From Sneathiella limimaris (GTDB lineage: Bacteria > Pseudomonadota > Alphaproteobacteria > Sneathiellales > Sneathiellaceae): a DNA stretch of 64,000 nucleotides. Position 1 is the first letter of the stretch. The number at the start of each line of letters is the position of its first letter. Where the stretch lies: the NCBI RefSeq assembly GCF_012932565.1, contig NZ_JABBYJ010000001.1, positions 2,356,001 through 2,420,000 on the forward strand. The letters are read 5' to 3'. Both the position numbers and the translations under genes were made by a program. Below the pieces are notes generated by a model. It searched no databases. It was not told where the DNA came from and worked only from the letters and a program-made list of their open reading frames with translations. Shown piece by piece: positions 57,290-58,484 of the stretch.

Positions 57290-57488
57290 TCAAACCCCTG
57301 AACGACTTAAAGTCGGATAGTAGTTGCCCACTTATAAAGAAGTTTTTCCAGATGATAAAGCCGTACGAACTATTATTATGAATAAAGTGTTACAATGGGT
57401 ATTATCAAAGGTTGCAACGAACTCTTATGAGACCCATAATCCGCCAAGAATTTTCAATTTTATCCACAGTAGAAGCAAGGTAAGTTCC

Positions 57489-58484
57489 ATGCACCTCACC
57501 ATAAATGGGGAAAATCATCAGTTTGAAGTCGCTTTAACTCTTTCCTCCCTTCTTAAGCAATTGGACTTGGATGGAAGTAAAGTCGCTATTGAGCGAAACT
57601 TGGAAATTGTTCCAAAATCCACTTACGATTCTGTCATGCTGGCAGATGGCGATAAACTGGAAATTGTCCATTTTATTGGGGGCGGACACAGTGTCACTGA
57701 CCCCAATTCAGATGAAAATGACAATTTAATCGTCGCGGGTAGAACCTTAAAATCCAGACTTATTGTGGGAACTGGTAAGTACAAGGATTTTGAAGAAACC
57801 AAACTTGCCATCGAAGCTTCGGGTGCGGATATGGTGACCGTGGCGGTACGTAGGGTGAATATTACGGATCGAAATCAGCCAATGCTTGTCGATTATGTGG
57901 ATCCTAAGAAATATGTGTATTTACCGAATACGGCCTTTTGTTACACGGCCGATGAAGCTTTACGGACGTTACGGCTTGCCCGTGAAGCCGGTGGATGGGA
58001 TTTGGTGAAACTTGAGGTTTTAGGCCACGAGAAAACACTTTATCCAAATATGGTTGAAACTCTAAAGGCGGCAAGAACCCTCATCGATGAGGGTTTTAAA
58101 GTGATGGTTTATTGCTCTGATGACCCGATCATGTGCCAAGAACTAGAGGATATGGGGTGCGTTGCGATCATGCCGCTGGGCGCTCCTATTGGTTCGGGTC
58201 TTGGAATCCAAAATCCAGTAGGAATTGGAATTATCAAAGAGCAGGCGAAGGTACCGGTAATTGTGGATGCGGGAGTTGGAACTGCTTCTGATGCGACCAT
58301 CGCGATGGAACTCGGCTGTGATGGCGTTTTAATGAACACGGCCATTGCCCATTCACCTAACCCCATAACAATGGCTTCAGCGATGAAAGACGCCGTGACA
58401 GCGGGCCGGAAATCCTTTCTCGCCGGTCGTATGCCCCGCAAGAGTTATGCGGACCCCAGTTCACCGAGAACTGGGTTGATATAA
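57489..58484 (+). CDS. thiSG: Fused ThiS sulfur carrier and ThiG thiazole synthase
   Basis: A 331-residue fusion. Residues 1-66 are a complete ThiS ubiquitin-like domain ending in Gly64-Gly65-Gly66, and residues from about 78 are ThiG, with the Schiff-base Lys segment [11 protein letters not shown] and the phosphate loop GVGTASD. ThiG builds the thiazole of thiamine using sulfur carried as a thiocarboxylate on the C-terminal Gly of ThiS, which here is internal. ATG 57489 has AAGG eight bases before it; a longer frame starts at 57324 but lacks family likeness. No thiC, thiE or thiO lies nearby and no TPP riboswitch is evident. It ends six bases from a convergent gene. Confidence 0.88.

Follow-up and report, generated by a model that had tools for sequence, protein, structure and literature searches.

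A ThiS-ThiG fusion with an internal glycine triplet in Sneathiella limimaris, and the probable release of its ThiS part by a JAMM metalloprotease

How is the sulfur carrier ThiS charged when the glycines that should form its end lie in the middle of a longer protein? In the known pathway ThiS is adenylated on its last glycine, which then becomes a thiocarboxylate, and the glycine triplet is used as a free end. The locus described here, from the alphaproteobacterium Sneathiella limimaris, encodes ThiS and the thiazole synthase ThiG as a single chain in which the carboxyl group of that last glycine is locked in a peptide bond, so that one must suppose a cut in the chain, a shorter product of the ribosome or a different chemistry; the protein has a bifunctional appearance, but as long as ThiS stays within one chain it cannot, by known chemistry, be charged with sulfur. 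The best explanation of the observations below, and one that we regard as quite likely to be correct, is that a Prok-JAB (JAMM) metalloprotease encoded elsewhere in the genome releases ThiS by cutting after the glycines; both the agent and the site of the cut we infer from sequences and their distribution.

The fused gene and its genomic setting

The window, that is, the whole stretch of DNA analysed, comprises 64,000 nucleotides (NCBI RefSeq assembly GCF_012932565.1, contig NZ_JABBYJ010000001.1, positions 2,356,001 to 2,420,000 of the forward strand). In window coordinates the features of the gene are the following.

57489-58484, + strand: fused ThiS-ThiG frame, 331 codons, with ATG at 57489 and stop codon at 58482-58484
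57489-57686, + strand: ThiS domain, 66 residues ending in Gly64-Gly65-Gly66; TIGR01683 matches residues 3-66
57678-57686, + strand: the three glycine codons GGG GGC GGA, read from the sequence; the cut is presumed to fall after Gly66
57687-57722, + strand: linker of 12 residues, predicted to be disordered (pLDDT below 50 at residues 65-69 and 71-75)
57723-58484, + strand: ThiG (thiazole synthase) domain with the stop codon; PF05690, E 1.2e-107

As the preliminary description of this DNA had proposed, one frame holds a full ThiS running to Gly64-Gly65-Gly66, a 12-residue linker and a full ThiG. The ThiS part scores 70 bits against the equivalog model TIGR01683 (cut-off 37.45), and in the ThiG part, which has 1wv2, 1xm3 and 1tyg as relatives in the PDB, PF05690 covers 2-247 of 247, the full length. 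Judged by sequence comparison the arrangement is far beyond chance, since both families match over their full length and the same arrangement recurs in 73 of the 180 ThiG loci considered below. Further candidate starts lie 5' of the ATG at 57489, out to a TTG at 57324. The glycine pair, which in ThiS should stand at a free C-terminus, is internal in the encoded protein, and a free glycine end would need processing. In a structural model of the fusion confidence is low at most residues from 65 to 75, which is, as expected, consistent with a flexible junction. No match to a TPP riboswitch or any other known RNA was found with Rfam between 56900 and 58700 up to an E-value of 1, and the promoter- and terminator-like sites near the gene are few more than in shuffled sequence.

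A separate thiS, to which the preliminary description had pointed as what might undo its reading, was not found in a search of the whole genome (3.66 Mb in three contigs) with the family PF02597, in which the sole other match is MoaD, a protein of 83 residues whose gene has a moeA-like gene before it and a moaE-like gene after it (both labelled by eye); the fused copy is the sole ThiS found. One full-length ThiF/MoeB-type E1 was found, which at 259 residues is too short for a rhodanese part. In the stretch L003:439-2253 (G000:C1 near 703252) its gene comes immediately after genes for a cysteine-synthase-like protein (by eye) and an Rrf2-type regulator, a neighbourhood reminiscent of the CysO-CysM-Mec+ set. 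ThiE is present, no match to ThiO reaches its cut-off, and a search for ThiC gave nothing here or in the four further genomes sampled from the genus. With no ThiC found the thiamine pathway looks partial: the bacterium probably produces its own thiazole and depends on uptake for the pyrimidine half.

The genome also encodes one strong Prok-JAB (JAMM) protein, 145 residues long and located outside the window, around G000:C2:393084-393404, which scores 70.3 bits against PF14464 (cut-off 25). PF14464 matches that scored less than 50 bits were left out of the JAB counts, and that of L007, the one such match in this genome, resembles RadC. The JAB gene does not adjoin thiSG here; by eye, it is flanked on one side by a threonine-aldolase-like gene and on the other by a small gene, beyond which lies an rluD-like gene. 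An rluD-like gene stands near JAB in many of 16 neighbourhoods compared by eye, fused and unfused alike, and this shared neighbour suggests that the JAB proteins are orthologues. The protein itself is intact, with the Glu, His-x-His and Ser-x-x-Asp metal and catalytic residues in place, and the JAMM signature (E24, H83, H85, S93 and D96) is invariant in nine aligned JAB proteins. A model built from this nine-sequence alignment (pLDDT 92.4) has among its closest solved folds 2kks (Z 19.6) and Pyrococcus JAMM1, both alone and with SAMP2. Archaeal JAMM1 acts on protein conjugates; in its complex with SAMP2 (PDB 5lda) it shares the JAB fold (Z 18.7, rmsd 1.7 over 129 residues) at 21% identity. Against the halophile desampylase model NF041370 the JAB protein scores 63.6 bits, below the cut-off of 130.

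Conservation of the junction across the class

The class-wide sample consisted of 385 genomes, the window's own included, of which 193 have a strong ThiG match; 180 loci were examined, and the 13 ThiG genomes outside this set are G008, G040, G046, G096, G124, G213, G218, G232, G241, G256, G322, G323 and G381. ThiS and ThiG occupy one frame in 73 of the 180 loci, the window counted (in G343 the gene is cut by a contig end). Gly-Gly-Gly stands at the junction in all 73 fused genes, a count in which the triplet belonged to the classifier of fusions and which was rechecked with a ThiS profile that ends before the glycines and was built from the fused set: this profile recovers 72 of the 73, and a search of the loci with it found no fused ThiS that lacks the triplet. 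The glycine codons themselves vary, as do the length of the linker (1 to 20 residues, as we draw the ThiG boundary) and its letters. The ThiS part, glycines included, is conserved in 15 aligned fusions, and in two relatives from the same genus, which have the fusion as well, the overall identity is 89 and 85%. On the ThiG tree the fusion state has changed at least 14 times.

The 107 unfused loci have ThiS beside ThiG in 99 cases, with none in the stretch examined for the remaining eight. Unfused ThiS terminates at the glycines in 97 of the 99 (Gly-Gly, with Gly-Gly-Gly in 34), so that it is the free glycine end that has been preserved. The two exceptions end in GGGALS (G170) and GGGM (G320). 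In the latter genome (locus L116) thiS and thiG are separate, in the other sampled genomes of its genus they are fused, and JAB was not found, a case that does not fit release by JAB. The former (locus L171) has a genome of 0.9 Mb in which the unfused ThiS runs three residues past the glycines and the JAB gene is kept, making it a natural test case for trimming.

The same set of genes bears on what the ribosome might do. It had been suggested from the letters of this locus that a programmed shift at the GGGGGC run could yield some free ThiS, an idea to which we give almost no weight. The run exists, at 57678-57683, one base to the right of the 57677-57682 first assigned to it, and the -1 frame does reach the TGA that had been pointed out, after 7 sense codons from the first glycine codon; a -1 stop also lies within 10 codons in 29 of the 73 fused genes. 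Yet GGGGGC occupies the window's place in just three of the 73 (the window, G229 and G123; a fourth has it one codon further on), and elsewhere the -1 stop lies up to 387 codons away or, in three genes, was not found, while +1 stops come 5 to 131 codons on. Neither the run nor the nearby stop is conserved among genes that all keep the glycines, and a shifted product would not end in glycine.

Co-occurrence of the fusion with Prok-JAB

Prok-JAB was sought in the same 385 genomes, with matches of 50 bits or more taken as strong, and 82 genomes have such a match. The fusion and the JAMM protein co-occur strongly: JAB is present in 68 of the 73 fused genomes vs 7 of the 107 unfused ones, and one of these seven (G116) has a long protein of different architecture, which leaves six. 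For 68/73 vs 6/107 Fisher's test gives p 5e-36, a value that disregards kinship. None of the 13 ThiG genomes outside the locus set has a strong JAB (G213 reaches 45.1 bits, G323 33.0), and about 192 genomes without strong ThiG contain seven with JAB at 50 bits or more (G019, G044, G184, G194, G227, G287 and G315). Within the window's genus three sampled genomes have both fusion and JAB, and two have neither strong ThiG nor JAB.

At the level of families the pattern is the same. Of 26 families whose sampled members are all fused, 25 have JAB in one genome or more and 21 have it in every genome; of 52 all-unfused families, 3 have it. Three families are mixed, and in one of them a single genus includes three fused genomes with JAB and an unfused one without. 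A test of correlated evolution on the ThiG tree, a kind of test that is liberal, gives a likelihood ratio of 69.6 (p 2.7e-14) for fusion and JAB, as against 18.1 (p 0.001) for the control gene ThiC. With independent pairs, a stricter test, the supported branches gave 7 pairs and no significant result (median p 0.22), with on average five pairs in the same direction, one in the opposite direction and 0.9 showing no difference.

A second sample was drawn from named genomes scanned with the fused alignment; the best 80 loci comprised 70 fused and 10 unfused, and JAB was sought in 50 of these genomes, covering the whole unfused set of 10 and 40 of the 70 with the fusion. Among these best 80 loci JAB at 50 bits or more is present in 38 of the 40 fused genomes vs 1 of the 10 unfused ones, with a weak match of 30.5 bits in another unfused genome. 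Five of the 40 fused genomes and none of the 10 unfused ones overlap with the first sample by identical DNA; when these are set aside, JAB is found in 33 of 35 fused genomes from the best 80 loci (p 5.9e-7). The holders of the fusion among the loci listed include Kordiimonas, Magnetospirillum, Tistrella, Sphingomonas and Erythrobacter.

In the two samples, the second being limited to the best 80 loci, a JAMM gene accompanies the fusion in 68 of 73 and 38 of 40 genomes, and the exceptions are mostly fragmented drafts. The five fused genomes in which JAB was not detected even with a profile of the JAB proteins themselves (G052, G224, G264, G313 and G343) are all in 50 to 450 contigs, but G264 is listed as 100% complete. 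One of the two named fused genomes in which JAB is missing, again among the best 80 loci, is Candidatus Magnetobacterium casense, which we take to lie outside the Alphaproteobacteria. The converse exceptions are the six unfused genomes with this kind of JAB, in five of which ThiS ends at the glycines, and the seven without strong ThiG; they point either to another use of JAB or to its retention, perhaps because it disappears only gradually once a fusion has split.

Release of ThiS and the alternatives to it

One protease that acts on a ThiS-like carrier, at the end formed by its glycines, is Mec+, a JAMM protein. Mec+ frees cysteine from its adduct with the carrier CysO, in a set that likewise has an E1 and a cysteine synthase (CysM) as partners (PMC3227635); it differs in that what is released is a cysteine adduct, and a separate carrier of the CysO type was not found in the genome studied here. 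Closer parallels are the MoaD-MoaE fusions, in which a ubiquitin-fold sulfur carrier is likewise joined, by way of glycines inside the chain, to the enzyme that consumes the sulfur, and in which the glycine end must likewise be released, although they serve molybdopterin rather than thiazole synthesis. In MoaX of M. tuberculosis the cut falls between Gly82 and Ser83 and is required for function; the article (PMC4326299) leaves the protease unnamed, unlike the Deinococcus case, in which the D. radiodurans fusion DR2607 is cleaved by the JAMM protein DRJAMM/DR0402 (PMC8832034). Cleavage is thus reported for MoaD-MoaE, whereas for ThiS-ThiG it is the distribution of genes that points to it. Fusions of ThiS and ThiG were noted in many proteobacteria by Iyer, Burroughs and Aravind (2006), who in a single sentence suggested that JAB might cut fused ThiS or MoaD (PMC1779556). 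The literature searched, with most subscription journals outside its scope, contained neither a report of ThiS-ThiG cleavage nor a test of this suggestion, in keeping with the earlier remark that the chemistry of such fusions is rarely discussed.

Among the possibilities first named for this locus, a cut after the glycines is the one that the comparative evidence favours, through the association with JAB in both samples and its correlated evolution with the fusion. The gene would accordingly be read into a single ThiS-ThiG precursor, which the JAMM metalloprotease would cleave by hydrolysis of the peptide bond that follows Gly66; ThiS would leave with its Gly-Gly-Gly end free, and ThiG would retain a short tail at its N-terminus. 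The freed ThiS would then be adenylated by the one full-length ThiF/MoeB-type E1 of the genome, gain sulfur as a thiocarboxylate and hand it to ThiG, as in ordinary thiazole synthesis.

It is conceivable, if rather unlikely, that some other protease cuts after the glycines and that JAB goes with the fusion through common descent or because it has a different role in those clades, for example the release of cysteine from a ThiS-type carrier in the manner of Mec+ and CysO. The five fused genomes without detectable JAB would be explained in this way, and the distance between JAB and thiSG in the window's genome and the position of the E1 gene directly behind a cysteine-synthase-like gene (by eye) would fit, but JAB tracks the fusion closely in each sample and among families, and in the MoaD-MoaE fusion a JAMM enzyme makes just such a cut (PMC8832034). 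That the uncleaved fusion works as it is, with sulfur reaching ThiG without a ThiS thiocarboxylate and ThiS serving as a merely tethered subunit, seems to us very improbable. Such a chain might be expected of an arrangement as widespread as this one, found in two-fifths of the ThiG loci, yet its glycine triplet should then drift, and it is invariant in the fusions while unfused ThiS nearly always stops at the glycines. We think it equally improbable that the ThiS part is a dead remnant and that MoaD or an unseen carrier serves ThiG: MoaD is present, ThiC was not found and the pathway looks partial, but the ThiS part scores well above the TIGR01683 cut-off, the aligned fusions have conserved it together with its glycines, and the same-genus relatives retain the fused gene.

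Release of ThiS by the JAMM protein therefore remains the preferred reading, and a bolder version of it can be framed, which we think improbable as a whole: the JAMM protein would be a dedicated, unrecognised thiamine gene in many alphaproteobacterial families and would act on a second product as well, ThiS serving both thiazole and cysteine synthesis, with JAMM separating it from ThiG to begin with and afterwards from a cysteine adduct, in the way Mec+ acts on CysO. A role of ThiS in cysteine synthesis is raised as a possibility because the E1 gene lies behind a cysteine-synthase-like gene.

The fusion is ordinary in the class and has long been on record; what is added here is a specific partner, possibly a thiamine gene that has not been listed as one. 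If the JAMM protein does make the cut, many bacteria of the class would rely for their vitamin B1 on a ubiquitin-type protease, a gene would be missing from their metabolic models, and the JAMM family would gain a clear housekeeping substrate.
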